From NCBI GenBank assembly GCA_015233655.1, contig JADFXI010000014.1:1-39411 (forward strand): a DNA stretch of 39,411 nt. Direction: 5' to 3'. The DNA is from Nitrospirota bacterium (lineage in GTDB: Bacteria; Nitrospirota; Thermodesulfovibrionia; Thermodesulfovibrionales; Dissulfurispiraceae). The translations under genes were made by a program, and so were the position numbers. A model generated the notes under the pieces. That model was not told where the DNA came from. It worked only from the letters and a program-made list of their open reading frames with translations, and did no database searches. Shown piece by piece: positions 4,627 to 39,411 of this stretch. Position 1 is the stretch's first letter; every line of letters starts with the position of its first letter.

Positions 4627-4797
4627 GGGTAGTGGGCTACTTTGTTTTTGCTCCGGATCACCTGAGTTCTCAACAGTGGGTAGGTATCGCCCTGCCCACA
4701 AATCGAGAAATGGCAGAAATAGACTCTCTTCAAGACTTGTCAGAAAAAAACTAGAAGACTAATTGCTCCGGAGCAAAAACAAAGTAGCCCACTACCC
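4627..4797. mobile_element. 171-bp element with perfect 30-bp terminal inverted repeats (MITE-like)
   Basis: 4627-4656 begins GGGTAGTGGGCTAC and ends TTGCTCCGG; 4768-4797 is its exact reverse complement over 30 bases. The 111-bp interior has no gene but holds a hairpin (GTGGGTAGG 4676-4684 with CCTGCCCAC 4691-4699). A third copy of the repeat lies alone at 12236-12269. The size, perfect ends and lack of coding suggest a miniature inverted-repeat element. No clear target-site duplication flanks this copy. Transposon family unknown. Confidence 0.55.
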
Positions 4798-11601: not shown

Positions 11602-11677
11602 TCCCGGGTAGCTCAGCTGGCAGAGCAGGTGGCTGTTAACCACCCTGTCGGGGGTTCGAATCCCTCCTCGGGAGCCA
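11602..11677 (+). tRNA. tRNA-Asn (anticodon GTT)
   Basis: A complete cloverleaf of 76 bases. The acceptor stem TCCCGGG pairs with CTCGGGA (one G-T pair), the D arm is GCTC-AGCTGGCA-GAGC, the anticodon arm GGTGG-CTGTTAA-CCACC gives anticodon GTT, and the T arm is GGGGG-TTCGAAT-CCCTC. The 3' GCCA is encoded. No intron. The gene stands alone between the heat-shock cluster and the rhodanese gene. Confidence 0.97.
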
Positions 11678-11739: not shown

Positions 11740-12180
11740 CTACCTTCGCTGTGAAAGCGGTGCGACCGGCATTCTTTTCTTCTGCCAGACCGAAAAACCT
11801 TCCGAATAGATAGCTATGTTCGTATATCCTTCAAGCGCTGCCCTGTGCGCCCATTGCCTGCCCGTCTCGCCTTTCGCATTCGAGTAAACGACCAGGAGCA
11901 GATCCTTTTTACCTGGAAGGCGGTGCTTAAATATGTCGAAATCCTTCTCAGGTATGCTGATAGCGCTGAAAATATGAGCGTTGTCGTATGCCTCTTTCTC
12001 CCGTGCATCAATAACGGTAAATTGTTTTTCTCGCCCGCCTTCAAGCCTGTAGGCATTGTCCACTATCATCGAATGGAGCTGTGCGGTATCAATCTCCTTA
12101 AAATCTGACCCTGCCAAAGAACTTGAGACATAGACTAAAGTAAAAATAAGAAGCCCGGCCACTATTTTTTTAAAGTCCAT
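11740..12180 (-). CDS. Exported rhodanese-domain protein lacking the active-site cysteine
   Basis: A 146-residue protein with a signal peptide (MDFKKIVAGLLIFTLVYVSSSLAG) and one rhodanese domain: FTVIDAREKEAYDNAHIFSAISIPEKDFDIF, then LLLVVYSNAKGETGRQWAHRAALEGYTNIAIYSEGFSVWQKK. In active sulfurtransferases the loop after the fourth strand begins with the catalytic Cys (pattern VYCxxGxxS); here that position is Ser100 (VYSNAKGETG, codon TCG). It is therefore probably a non-catalytic periplasmic binding or regulatory domain. The start has no ribosome site; TAAAAT lies 6 bases before the ATG. The promoter and first 11 codons duplicate those of the nucleotidyltransferase gene at 15114. Confidence 0.82.
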   Translation of the reverse strand: MDFKKIVAGLLIFTLVYVSSSLAGSDFKEIDTAQLHSMIVDNAYRLEGGREKQFTVIDAREKEAYDNAHIFSAISIPEKDFDIFKHRLPGKKDLLLVVYSNAKGETGRQWAHRAALEGYTNIAIYSEGFSVWQKKRMPVAPLSQRR

Positions 12181-12297
12181 CCGTTTATTTTACAGGATTC
12201 ATTCGCGCATAATCACTAACACTCCTGATTCGGTTTGATCCGGAGCAAAAACAAAGTAGCCCACTACCCATGATTCCCCGTATTTACGTTTTCCTAG
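12148..12297 (-). repeat. Duplicated 5' module, copy A (promoter plus first codons of the rhodanese gene)
   Basis: Copy A of a repeat shared with 15082-15188. A 35-base block (12185-12219) is identical in both. Towards the genes the likeness continues through the start codon and 11 codons (28 of 33 bases equal; MDFKKI versus MEFKKI). Upstream it resumes after position 12275 (GTATTTACGTTTTC versus GTATTTGCGTTTTC). Copy A is interrupted by an extra 45 bases relative to copy B. Confidence 0.75.
12226..12275. mobile_element. 40-bp solo repeat insertion flanked by TGATT duplications
   Basis: Positions 12236-12269 match the terminal repeat of the 171-bp element (34 bases identical to the reverse complement of 4627-4660). 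The segment 12231-12270 is flanked by TGATT at 12226-12230 and 12271-12275. The related copy B at 15163-15167 has a single TGATT and no insert. This looks like a short insertion with a 5-bp target duplication, or the scar of a larger element. Confidence 0.5.
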
Positions 12298-12302
12298 AAA
12301 GC

Positions 12303-12337
12303 TTGACAAATATATTCAGAAATTGATATATATCAAT
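12303..12337 (+). promoter_or_regulatory. Promoter and ArsR-type operator of the arsR-VTT-methyltransferase operon
   Basis: TTGACA (12303-12308) and TATATA (12327-12332), spacer 18. A perfect 16-bp palindrome ATTGATATATATCAAT (12322-12337) covers the -10 box, the classical place and AT-rich form for an ArsR-family operator. The adjacent regulator gene very likely represses its own operon here until its ligand releases it. Confidence 0.75.
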
Positions 12338-12364
12338 AGTTGAATGTATTAACGGAGATTGCCC

Positions 12365-12706
12365 ATGCTTTCATCAGGTCAGAAAATTGAGCTTTTAAAG
12401 GTCATCGCCCATCCGGTAAGAATTAAAATTCTAGAGGAACTCGCAAAAGGCGTGAAGTGTGTGAGCGATTTCGAGGAATTCCTGGAATTGCGTCAGCCTA
12501 ATATCTCACAGCATCTCGCCCTCCTCAGAGATCACGGCATCGTCGATTACTACATTGACGGAAGACTCAGATGCTATTTCCTTGTGGACCCTTTTGTGCC
12601 GGACCTTCTGGATTTGCTTAAAAAGGACTACCACCAGCTGCTTCCGAGGCCGGCTTGTTGTCCAGTAACAAAAAAAGGGGTGTACCCAGGTGACAGAAAA
12701 AAATAG
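12365..12706 (+). CDS. ArsR-family winged-helix regulator
   Basis: A 113-residue ArsR/SmtB repressor. The start at 12365 has GGAG 8 bases upstream; an in-frame TTG 6 bases earlier is less likely. The winged helix spans residues about 8-85 (ELLKVIAHPVRIKILEELAKG, then LRQPNISQHLALLRDHGIVDYYIDGRLRCYFL). Candidate thiol ligands are Cys in KCVSDF and a C-terminal ACCP pair, so a metalloid, heavy metal or reactive sulfur/selenium signal is possible; the ligand is not determined by sequence. It probably controls the two genes behind it (gaps of 18 and 18 bases) through the palindrome at 12322-12337. Confidence 0.9.
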   Translation: MLSSGQKIELLKVIAHPVRIKILEELAKGVKCVSDFEEFLELRQPNISQHLALLRDHGIVDYYIDGRLRCYFLVDPFVPDLLDLLKKDYHQLLPRPACCPVTKKGVYPGDRKK

Positions 12707-12724
12707 ACGAGTATTGTCGGGCAC

Positions 12725-14609: not shown

Positions 14610-15114
14610 ATGCATCCTCCCTGCCGGTAATCTTACAATAATCCTTTATCTTTTCCCAGTCAAGATCATCAGCAAGAACTTCAACAATAGACTGAATATC
14701 CGCCCAGTCCTTCATTTCCCTTTTTGGGTTGTTACGAATGCTTTCTAGCTTCATTCCTATTATGTCCTCTGGAAGAGCTACATGGATAGCTTTGCCATCC
14801 AAGCCCATCAATATCCGGCTCGACTCGATAATCCCTTTTTCCTTTTTAGTATAAAGAAAATCCACCGACCCCATGTCCCGTATTAAATGAACGAACTGGT
14901 CAGCAAAGGTTGAACTGACAGTATGATCATAGCCTAATCCCTTCATGACAGCGGTGATTTTTTCTCTATCAATAGACCTTGCCAGAAAGTCGATATCCAT
15001 GGTGTCTCTTCGCACTCCCCAGAATCCCATGGCGACCGCCCCTACTATTGCGTAGGGAACGTTAAGCCTATCCATTTCGAGAAGGAGCGCGGTCAGTATT
15101 TTTTTAAATTCCAT
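14584..15114 (-). CDS. Nucleotidyltransferase-fold protein, AbiEii/MNT-like
   Basis: A 176-residue protein of the nucleotidyltransferase superfamily. The core motif is intact: YAIVGAVAMGFWGVRRDTMDIDFL (residues 21-44) has the GG/GA-x(9)-R-x-T-x-DID pattern with the metal-binding aspartates, and a third acidic strand VDFLYTKK follows. It resembles AbiEii/AbiGii-type toxins and MNT proteins that add nucleotides to RNA or proteins, and it has an overlapping small partner, so a toxin-antitoxin-like module is possible but unproven. No ribosome site precedes the ATG; the promoter and first codons duplicate those of the rhodanese gene. Confidence 0.75.
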   Translation of the reverse strand: MEFKKILTALLLEMDRLNVPYAIVGAVAMGFWGVRRDTMDIDFLARSIDREKITAVMKGLGYDHTVSSTFADQFVHLIRDMGSVDFLYTKKEKGIIESSRILMGLDGKAIHVALPEDIIGMKLESIRNNPKREMKDWADIQSIVEVLADDLDWEKIKDYCKITGREDAYERILGFR

Positions 15115-15188
15115 ATGCTTATTATTTTACAGGATTCATTCGCGCATAATCACTAAACTTTATGATTATTAGTATTTGCGTTTTCTCC
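15082..15188 (-). repeat. Duplicated 5' module, copy B (promoter plus first codons of the nucleotidyltransferase gene)
   Basis: Copy B of the repeat described at 12148-12297. Positions 15122-15156 are identical to 12185-12219. The extended -10-like CTGTAAAAT lies in the repeat (9 bases before the ATG here, 6 in copy A). Similarity spans ATGGA-TTTAAAAAAATA of the coding start. This copy has a single TGATT at 15163-15167 and no insertion. Confidence 0.75.
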
Positions 15189-30411: not shown

Positions 30412-32952
30412 TTACTGTATTTTCCGGATGGTATGATTACTCGAATCAGAAATATATAAGTTTATTCCGTCCGTAGTTATCGCGCCCGGCAAAGTGAATG
30501 ACGCAGACGAAGCGATGCCGTCGGCGGAACCGCAGCCTTCACCTATAAGCCCCGCAACAGTCGTGACCGCTCCCGTGCTTATCACTATCTTGCGGATGGC
30601 GCAATTTGCGGTGTCAGCGACATAGAGGTTAGTTCCGTCAGTTGTTATGCCGTAAGGATAATTGAAGCGGGCCACAGAGCCGGTGCCGTCATTTGAACCT
30701 GTCTGCCCGCCGGTTCCCGCGAGCGTCGTGACCACACCTGTGCTTATCACTATCTTGCGGATGGCACTGTTCCACGTATCCGCAACATACAGGTTGGTAC
30801 CGTCTGTCACGACCCCGTAGGGATAATTAAAGCGGGCCGCAGAACCAGTGGCGTCAGTCGTGCCTGATTTCCCGGCACTGCCGGCAAGGGTGGTTACAAC
30901 TCCTGTGCTTACTACTATTTTCCTGATTGTGTGGTTCCAGGTATCCGCCACATAAAGGTTAGTCCCGTCAGTGGTCACGGCTGACGGATAAGTAAAGCGG
31001 GCTGCAGAACCCGTACCATCAGTCGAACCTGTTGTTCCGGAGGTCCCTGCCAGGGTAGTTGCCTGTGCACTGCTTATGACTATCTTGCGGATGGAACAAT
31101 TTGAGGAATCGGCCACATAAAGGTTAGTCCCATCCGTAGTTATACCGTAAGGATAACTGAAGTTCGCTGCCGAACCTTTGCCGTCAGTCGAGCCTGCTGT
31201 TCCAGCAGTGCCTGCCAGGGTCGTTACTACTCCTGTGCTCGCTACTATTTTACGGATTGCAAAATTATATGTATCCGCGACATACAGATTGGTCCCATCC
31301 GTGGTTATGCCGTAAGGATAATCAAACCGTGCTGATGAGCCGGTAGCATCAGTTGAGCCTGCCTGAGAAGCGCTGCCGGCGAGGGTCGTAACCACTCCTG
31401 CCAGATTCAGAGGATTGCCCTGCCGCGCTCCTCCCGTCTGCGTCGTCGATACTGAAGTAACATTAAAATTGATGCACTTATAATCAATAACGCTCCATGT
31501 GGAGCCGTCATATAAAGATTCGCAGAATTGAAAAGCGCCTGCATATGCACTGGAGGGGACCCATTCCGTCATATTGTTATTATTGACGGTCTGGCCGGGG
31601 GAGAGAGTCAATGACGTTAGAACACTGTCATAAACACCGCCGCCGGGAATCACAATAAATGTGTTAAGGTACAGAGTATAAGTGGAGGCGGTATTGTTCG
31701 TAATGGACGAAGATATCGGACCGTAGGTGCCTCCAAGTGTAATGCTGGAATTTGAAGGCGCCGTAAGCGTATGCGTAAGCGAAGTTGATGATGCCGAACA
31801 CACACTGCTAAGGCTTCCCTGTACCGGAGTATAACTCGTTGTCGTAGAGCCATTGCCTAACTGGCCATAGACATTATACCCCCAGTCCAAGACGGTCCCG
31901 TCGCTCCCCAGGGCCACCATATGAAATTCACCCGTTGCAACAGCTGTAATTCCGCTTAAACCGTTTACCTGCACAGCGCTGCTGCTGCTTGTCGCCGTGC
32001 CGTTACCGAACTGGCCGTAGGAATTGTTTCCCCAGATCCAGACGGTCCCGTCACTTTTCAGGGCCATCGAGTTAATAAAGCCCGCTTTTACAGAGATAAC
32101 GCTGCTCAGCCCGCTAACCTGCACAGGATTACTGCTGCTTACTGATGTCCCATTCCCGAGCTGTCCATAATAATTGTAACCGCAGGCCCAGACTGTCCCG
32201 TCGCTTTTCAGAAAAGTGGTATGATACGTCCCTGCTGCTACAGCCGTAACCCCGCTGACCCCGCCTATCTGTGCAGCAGTAGTGCTGTTTGTTGTCGTAC
32301 CGTTGCCTAATTGGCCGCTGCTGTTGTTGCCGACTGTCCAGAGAGTCCCGTCATATTTCAAGACGACCGTGTGGCCATATCCGGCGGCAATAGCCGTTAT
32401 GCCGGCCAGACCGGTGACCTGCACGGCAGAAGAGCTGTTTACAGTTGTGCCGTTGCCAAGTTGACCGCCGCCGTTGTTGCCCCAGGCCCAGACTGTCGCG
32501 TCATTCTTCAAGACAACCGTATGATAAGCCCCTGCCGCAATCGCGATAACACCGCTTATACTGCTTACCTGTACAGGTGTAGTGCTGTTTGTAGTTGTAC
32601 CGTTGCCCAGTTGACCGCTGCTGTTGCTGCCCCAGGCCCAGACTGTCCCGTCATTCTTCAGGGCAACCGTGTGATACGCCCCTGCGGCAATCGCTATAAC
32701 ACCGCTTAAACTGTTCACCTGTACTGCCGTATGACTGTCGGTTGTCGAGCCGTTGCCCAGTTGGCCGCTGCTGTTATATCCCCAGACCCATACTGTTCCG
32801 TCACTCTTCAGGATTGCCGTGTGATAATAGCCTGCAGCAACAGCAGTAACACAATTGACGGCTTCAGCCCTGCCTGCCATGAAAAGAAGGCATAACACCA
32901 GAACAGGATAAACGACATTAAACGCTATTCTTCGCTTTATAATCTTTGCCAT
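30412..32952 (-). CDS. Secreted double beta-propeller protein: seven RCC1 repeats and six NHL repeats
   Basis: An 846-residue exported protein with signal sequence (MAKIIKRRIAFNVVYPVLVLCLLFMAGRAEA). Residues about 35-383 hold seven ~50-residue RCC1 repeats (pattern VxAIAAGxYHTVxLKxDGTVWxWGxNxxGQLGNG). A linker of about 130 residues (LTHTLTAPSNSSITLGGTYG, an Ig-like candidate) follows. The last ~327 residues are six 55-residue NHL repeats (TTLAG..G..G..DGTGSAARF.YPYGITTDGTNLYVADT.N..IRKI). Both groups would form closed propellers of 7 and 6 blades. Likely a surface or secreted binding protein; ligand unknown. The in-frame TTG at 32970 is a less likely start. Confidence 0.9.
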   Translation of the reverse strand: MAKIIKRRIAFNVVYPVLVLCLLFMAGRAEAVNCVTAVAAGYYHTAILKSDGTVWVWGYNSSGQLGNGSTTDSHTAVQVNSLSGVIAIAAGAYHTVALKNDGTVWAWGSNSSGQLGNGTTTNSTTPVQVSSISGVIAIAAGAYHTVVLKNDATVWAWGNNGGGQLGNGTTVNSSSAVQVTGLAGITAIAAGYGHTVVLKYDGTLWTVGNNSSGQLGNGTTTNSTTAAQIGGVSGVTAVAAGTYHTTFLKSDGTVWACGYNYYGQLGNGTSVSSSNPVQVSGLSSVISVKAGFINSMALKSDGTVWIWGNNSYGQFGNGTATSSSSAVQVNGLSGITAVATGEFHMVALGSDGTVLDWGYNVYGQLGNGSTTTSYTPVQGSLSSVCSASSTSLTHTLTAPSNSSITLGGTYGPISSSITNNTASTYTLYLNTFIVIPGGGVYDSVLTSLTLSPGQTVNNNNMTEWVPSSAYAGAFQFCESLYDGSTWSVIDYKCINFNVTSVSTTQTGGARQGNPLNLAGVVTTLAGSASQAGSTDATGSSARFDYPYGITTDGTNLYVADTYNFAIRKIVASTGVVTTLAGTAGTAGSTDGKGSAANFSYPYGITTDGTNLYVADSSNCSIRKIVISSAQATTLAGTSGTTGSTDGTGSAARFTYPSAVTTDGTNLYVADTWNHTIRKIVVSTGVVTTLAGSAGKSGTTDATGSAARFNYPYGVVTDGTNLYVADTWNSAIRKIVISTGVVTTLAGTGGQTGSNDGTGSVARFNYPYGITTDGTNLYVADTANCAIRKIVISTGAVTTVAGLIGEGCGSADGIASSASFTLPGAITTDGINLYISDSSNHTIRKIQ
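30415..31400 (-). repeat. DNA tandem repeat encoding six NHL blades (~165-bp period)
   Basis: Six near-identical units of about 165 bases, each with recurring strings such as ACATAAAGGTTAGT and CCGTAAGGATAA on the plus strand. They encode the C-terminal propeller. The high nucleotide identity points to recent unit duplication or conversion. Confidence 0.85.
31804..32850 (-). repeat. DNA tandem repeat encoding seven RCC1 blades (~150-bp period)
   Basis: Seven units of about 150 bases, each with a recurring CCCAGACTGTCCCGTC-like string on the plus strand. They encode the N-terminal propeller; units 2 and 3 are most alike. Confidence 0.85.
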
Positions 32953-33010
32953 CCCACTTAGCGTAAGCAACAGCCTCGTTCCGTGTCAAGTATAAAAAAT
33001 CTGATATTTA

Positions 33011-38714: not shown

Positions 38715-39395
38715 CTAATTTGAGGGTTCCTCATCACCAATAATATGTTCAAGAGATGTAACTTGCTTGGCTAATTTTTTCTTCTCTGATTCGTGCTTGC
38801 GCTCAATCTTCTTTAAATCCTCCGCAACCGGAAGATATTCAGGTTTTATGCCTCGCCCAATAAGAACATTGCGAACATCGGTATTATTCTTAACATGCTC
38901 AGTAGTAATATCTGATTCACTCCCCAAGTCATCTCTTTTAATATTGAAGTTAGTAATTTCATTGGCGAAATCTTTCGCTTTAATGGTAATAGTTGGTAGA
39001 AAATCAGCTAACGGACGACCTTTGGGCACATTGAGACGATCCTTCATGTCTTGCGTAGTTCTGCCACCGAAAAGAGCCTGATCTCCTTTACTGCGGATAC
39101 GTGCAAAACTTTGCGAATCGCCAAGGCGTTCAAAGATAACACCCGAAAGTTGTTTTTCGGATAGGGAAAGTTTTTTCCGGGCACTTAATCTTTCAACCTC
39201 TATCAAATGCTTTTCTATAATTTCTTGTTTACGGGTTTGTACCGCAAAATACGTTTGCGCAAAGGCTATTTCATCTTTGGAGGGGTCTCCATTTTGAGCA
39301 ATAAGATAACAGGCATATCTATCAAGGGCTATATCATCGATCGAGCGTTGAGCACCGGAACCAACAGCAACCTTTTTCGTGACATCAAGAAAAAA
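38715..39395 (-). CDS. dinD: DNA damage-inducible protein D (DinD), 5' end missing
   Basis: A partial protein of about 226 residues that matches DinD: VAVGSGAQRSIDDIALDRYACYLIAQNGD, AQTYFAVQTRKQEII, LSEKQLSGVIFERLGD, IRSKGDQALFGG and the C-terminal LIGRGIKPEYLPVAEDLKKIERK. In E. coli DinD is SOS-induced and inhibits RecA filaments; here the N-terminal BRO-like part is absent because the contig ends. The last ~25 bases of the window do not fit DinD and are an inverted copy of this gene's own 3' part, creating a stop at 39396-39398. The frame is open to 39395. It converges on the penicillin-binding protein gene. Confidence 0.85.
   Translation of the reverse strand, partial: FFLDVTKKVAVGSGAQRSIDDIALDRYACYLIAQNGDPSKDEIAFAQTYFAVQTRKQEIIEKHLIEVERLSARKKLSLSEKQLSGVIFERLGDSQSFARIRSKGDQALFGGRTTQDMKDRLNVPKGRPLADFLPTITIKAKDFANEITNFNIKRDDLGSESDITTEHVKNNTDVRNVLIGRGIKPEYLPVAEDLKKIERKHESEKKKLAKQVTSLEHIIGDEEPSN
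38759..38783. repeat. 25-bp inverted repeat, internal arm (within dinD)
   Basis: Starts TAACTTGCTTGGC and ends TTTTTTCTT; it encodes KKLAKQV of DinD on the minus strand. It is the exact reverse complement of 39387-39411. Confidence 0.95.
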
Positions 39396-39411
39396 TTAGC
39401 CAAGCAAGTTA
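39387..39411. repeat. 25-bp inverted repeat, contig-end arm
   Basis: The final 25 bases of the window are the exact reverse complement of 38759-38783 and interrupt the dinD reading frame. This may be an assembly-end artefact or a real inversion junction. Confidence 0.95.

Follow-up and report, generated by a model that had tools for sequence, protein, structure and literature searches.

A 37-bp insert, the probable solo-end remnant of a MITE linked to IS1-type elements, in a gene leader of a Nitrospirota bacterium

The ISAba3-like element of the IS1 family has the end GGTGGTGTTTCAAAAAGTATGCTG and is flanked by an 8-bp target duplication, according to the available excerpt of PMC6382973. The short dispersed element (MITE) that supplied the insert described here and its larger relatives are like that element in that their ends begin GGTxxTGTxTCA, an 8-bp duplication is found and the relatives carry an IS1-type transposase. 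Compared with the same excerpt, they are unlike it in that the relatives are 2.3-3.4 kb long with other genes between the ends, their transposase is a single ORF of ~280-296 aa and the MITE codes for nothing. For Chunjie of Geobacter uraniireducens and QMITE2 of Coxiella, the excerpt of PMC10969869 describes full copies with conserved ends and duplications beside many partial, presumably dead copies. Full and partial copies coexist here too, but, unlike what that excerpt describes, several partial copies break off close to where one terminal repeat ends on its inner side, and in two a duplication still surrounds a solo end. Nearly precise excision of the Tn10 type, as covered in the excerpt of PMC12524634, also removes the interior of an inverted-repeat element and leaves a short remnant; the excerpt of PMC9397093 deals with excision in the IS3 family. 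A search of open-licence papers by title and start of abstract returned no description of this MITE or of solo ends of IS1-type MITEs.

The insert and its empty site

The window, which is the whole stretch of DNA analysed (39,411 nt, contig JADFXI010000014.1 of Nitrospirota bacterium assembly GCA_015233655.1; own genome, G000), contains the literal text TGATT (12226-12230), 40 bases and a second TGATT (12271-12275). This text lies in one copy (A) of a leader of which a second, insert-free copy (B) was located by alignment at 15082-15188 (plus strand), with one TGATT at the corresponding point (15122 onward). With 45 bp taken out of copy A (12224-12268), A and B aligned over ~104 columns; the junction is free of gaps, and a single gap of 3 bases lies elsewhere. 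Among 5000 random window segments, 9 scored at least as high as the right-hand part of the alignment alone, so the homology of A and B continues past the insert. Copy B accordingly serves as the empty-site reference that the original prediction had made of it, and the insertion event is readable against it once the insert and one target copy are removed; a single draft genome suffices to orient this event. The further view of B as a duplicate of the module did not stand: only ~100 bp is common to both (window 12148-12296 and 15082-15188), and the gene behind A is a rhodanese gene while that behind B has a weak nucleotidyltransferase match below the Pfam cut-off, which makes this a shared leader and not a second rhodanese/arsR module. 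As an observation in its own right, a leader of ~100 bp fronts two genes that match different Pfam families, one for a rhodanese and one probably for a nucleotidyltransferase. The same region was sought in the sole congener in the data, Nitrospirae bacterium nDJH15bin8 (JADFXU01; abbreviated G001), with no match and hence no orthologous empty site there.

The prediction had also read the insert as 40 bp flanked by a 5-bp duplication. To assess duplication length, the k bases that end the left flank were matched to the k bases that open the right flank in 12 full MITE copies (6 from the own genome, 6 from the congener), with mismatched flanks as control. Flank identity was 0.667 at k = 8 against 0.29 in the control; for all remaining values of k between 3 and 13 the range was 0.23-0.38 against 0.23-0.30, and a sum as high as the observed one occurred in 0 of 20,000 permutations. 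A duplication of 5 bp was ruled out (0.283 at k = 5 against 0.273 in the control). With the peak at 8 bp only, TGATT is the unmutated core of an 8-bp duplication, an example of how a repeat of 5 bases picked out by eye can belong to a longer one. The flanks of the other copies, which had been proposed as a check, do show duplications; their length, however, is 8 bp and not 5, and they reach 6/8 or better in only 6 of the 12 full copies (8/8 in 1, 7/8 in 4, 6/8 in 1, at most 5/8 in 6).

On the family length of 8 bp and the junction against copy B, the two target-site duplications are CCTGATTC (12224-12231) and CATGATTC (12269-12276), identical at 7/8 positions. In the direction of the repeat they read GAATCATG and GAATCAGG (7/8) with 37 bases between them, an agreement at offset 37 that 1 of 50 control octamers also reached. 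Copy B reads TATGATTA at the target site, so CATGATTC looks the more ancestral of the two and the C at 12225 is likely a later change.

Because the duplication is 8 bp, the inserted DNA is 37 bp (12232-12268), with GGTAGTG... on the minus strand. It equals, with 0 mismatches, arm positions 1-34 of the full MITE copy on contig C1 followed by the terminal ACC of that copy, so that 34 nt come from one arm and 3 nt from the other MITE end. A repeat search paired 12235-12275 with both ends of a 171-bp element at 4627-4797 (95-97% over 36-40 nt), in agreement with the earlier statement that 34 bases match the terminal repeat of this element. As a remnant of an insertion it is clearly marked and ordinary in kind.

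The repeat family and its larger relatives

The MITE is ~169 bp long, non-coding and dispersed, has inverted ends of 33-34 bp (GGTAGTGGGCTACTTTGTTTTTGCTCCGGATCA) and a target duplication of constant length; the 169-nt element folds into a long hairpin (z -10). The full-length copy in the window, of the same subfamily as the insert, lies at 4628-4796 (plus strand; 169 bp from GGTAGTG to CACTACC), and its own flanks have no visible duplication (3/8). A pattern search of the two genomes gave 19 and 16 matches, which were grouped into 23 loci: 12 full copies (own genome, 6 copies of 169-211 bp; congener, 6 copies of 167 bp), 2 shortened copies with both ends, 8 one-ended copies and 1 cut by a contig end. 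The full-copy count omits C17 (cut by a contig end) and G001 C14:40187 (near a contig end), and BLAST alone detected one extra single end, C60. The 211-bp copy (L016, G000 C190:24191-24401) has an extra ~41 bp with a hairpin of its own, CCCCAAAAAG...CTTTTTGGGG.

Exact pattern scans were extended to other collections. Viral sequences gave 2 stretches, neither MITE-like beyond the part searched. The genome_contigs set gave 22, among which L111, L112 and L129 are the congener itself and most others are without an inverted partner; one stretch from Chitinophagaceae (L118) includes a 128-bp pair in which 6 of 24 positions are mismatched.

A larger element in the congener (G001 C1:15081-17581) has the ends GGTAGTGTCTCAGTTTGAATTTT and GGCAGTGTCTCAGTTTGAATTTT, the end in common with the congener MITE being 17 bp, and contains an uninterrupted 279-aa transposase frame. 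This protein scores 27.4 bits against Pfam IS1 (PF03400; cut-off 24.1), and its plasmid homologues are annotated as IS1 family. Against the NCBIfam IS1 equivalog it scores 71.9 bits where 100 are required, which indicates a divergent branch and not canonical IS1. D65, D137 and E202 are invariant in 9 of 9 aligned transposase proteins and probably constitute the DDE triad. Among the larger relatives with both ends (n = 7), the 8-9 bp duplication of IS1 elements is exact at 8 bp in 4, exact at 9 bp in 1 and absent in 2. The plasmid elements of Acidiphilium multivorum and Mesorhizobium loti (2634 and 3370 bp) have exact 8-bp duplications and ends of the TCTCAG and GGTCAG kinds, both of which also occur in the congener and the own genome; viral contigs L147 and L148 have 8 bp and L149 has 9 bp, and L131 and L168 have none. 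Three of the 10 transposase relatives (L144, L146, L150) were omitted from this count, as the DNA examined does not include both of their ends.

The transposase is present in 1 of the 31 genomes of the family search, that of the congener, and the own genome gave 0 matches at E 1e-10 (assembly 84% complete). IS1595 as the parent was rejected, IS1595-type transposases being found in 0 of 2 genomes. An IS1-type transposase probably moved the MITE. Taken together, these observations connect a small repeat, dispersed in a Nitrospirota lineage, with IS1-type elements.

Other genes lie between the ends of relatives in elements of 2.5-3.4 kb (L147 812-3321, L149 607-3479, L166 2264-4897, L167 1793-5162). 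Between the ends of the congener IS1-type element there is a tRNA-Ser(GCT) (L131 2269-2342, G001 C1), upstream of the transposase on the same strand; a tRNA-Ser(GCT) occupies the same place relative to the transposase in viral contig L146 (1295-1368), and the two are only loosely alike.

Solo ends and the origin of the insert

The window insert has counterparts. A solo end in the congener (G001 C33:105157-105194) consists of 36 nt of the opposite arm and 2 nt more, with 0 mismatches and octamers of 7/8. Two shortened copies keep both ends: G001 C11 (40+14 nt, 1 mismatch, duplication 8/8) and C79 of the own genome (25+14 nt, 2 mismatches, duplication 6/8, equalled by 7 of 50 control octamers). 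No two shortened copies are identical in sequence. The remaining single ends have no convincing duplication (at most 6/8, control level), and no inverted partner was found beside 11 single ends with up to 2.9 kb taken, the best having 7-9 mismatches in 20, as in the control; single ends C111, C33 and C126 are diverged and may be old. In the eight counted solo ends the arm match ends at 34, 36, 41, 41, 30, 29, 28 and 55 nt, 7 of 8 (4 of 5 in a stricter set) being no longer than 41 nt, so that in this small sample the stops cluster around the inner boundary of the 33-34 bp repeat. This count rests on a 26-base pattern, which favours copies with an intact end, and on a rough uniform null, and leaves out the weak single ends G1C22 and G1C13, which were included in the duplication and partner searches, as well as G0C126 (arm match 21 nt). 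Recurring solo ends of this kind form a small natural set of junctions for asking how bacterial MITEs decay.

We consider it very probable that the insert is the solo-end remnant of an IS1-related MITE that entered as a full element and later lost its interior. An IS1-family transposase would have inserted a full MITE of ~169 bp into the rhodanese-arsR spacer, duplicating 8 bp of an original target site most like CATGATTC. A later deletion of ~132 bp would then have taken away the loop together with almost the whole second arm, so that the residue between the duplications would be 34 nt from one arm joined to 3 nt from the opposite end. The deletion presumably followed the insertion, and its cause may have been slippage during replication of the hairpin, or a one-ended cut that was then repaired by end joining. 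Long hairpins are held to promote deletion, and slippage normally uses microhomology, as nearly precise excision of the Tn10 type uses short direct repeats. Two solo junctions here, unlike those of Tn10-type events, are without microhomology, which counts against slippage and makes end joining after a one-ended cut also possible. Also counting against the remnant reading are the shortness of the second-end remnants (3 nt and 2 nt, expected by chance at 1/64 and 1/16), the transposase not found in the own genome, the lack of a duplication at 4628-4796 and the missed NCBIfam cut-off.

The stops at 34, 36, 40, 41 and 41 nt, the 2-3 nt of the other end in two solos and the lack of microhomology would all be explained if solo ends were footprints of abortive excision, in which transposase would cleave a few bases within one end, degradation would run from there as far as the other end, shielded by bound transposase, and the ends would be joined; we regard this as unlikely. 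Less probable still is that a mini-element of 37-38 bp itself inserted, having been shortened elsewhere and mobilised as a tiny MITE, with no later deletion needed. Very short units might move, given that the two shortened copies with 14 nt of both outer ends have duplications of 8/8 and 6/8, but the window insert and the congener solo retain just 3 and 2 nt of the second end, and the shortened copies all differ from one another in sequence. One-ended transposition, known for Tn3-type elements, would insert one end and adjacent DNA with a normal duplication and no second end. One whole end does lie inside the insert, but past the arm the sequence does not continue as it does in the element (AACC against AATT; CCTCC against CCTGA) and instead agrees with the other end in its terminal ACC and CC, so that this course is very doubtful. 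That nothing was inserted in A, copy B having lost 45 bp or the copies having drifted, is highly improbable and largely refuted by the dispersed repeat: a genome search gave only two leader copies, which makes polarity depend on the repeat, but the extra 37 bp match its ends and are flanked by the 8-bp duplication of that MITE family.

Flanking genes and other features of the window

On one side of the remnant lies a rhodanese-domain gene (11740-12180, minus strand; PF00581) and on the other an arsR-family regulator gene (12359-12706, plus strand; PF01022). A 35-bp block beside the rhodanese start (12185-12219) is identical in A and B, and a block with CTTGACA and an AT-rich dyad (12303-12350, plus strand) precedes arsR and is conserved in a paralogue on C235; both are putative promoter regions, the latter promoter/operator-like. 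The insert sits between the two blocks, and both are intact. A promoter scan of 12150-12400 gave one site, at 12309-12336 on the minus strand, and none inside the insert. A regulatory effect was for this reason dropped as a shown fact, and the proposal that control of both genes had changed found no support, the conserved blocks on either side being untouched; such an effect is possible, and what is known of rhodanese or arsR control is unchanged by the insert. The arsR paralogue aligns at 81% over 419 bp (window 12302-12720 and G000 C235:12662-13080), with the promoter/operator-like dyad kept.

Elsewhere in the window, Rfam gave only a tRNA at 11602-11674. A long ORF at 30412-32970 (minus strand) contains tandem repeats of 165 and 150 bp at 30550-32823. 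A perfect 25-nt inverted repeat (38759-38783 and 39387-39411), possibly a mobile element or an assembly break, has one arm that ends exactly at the contig end.
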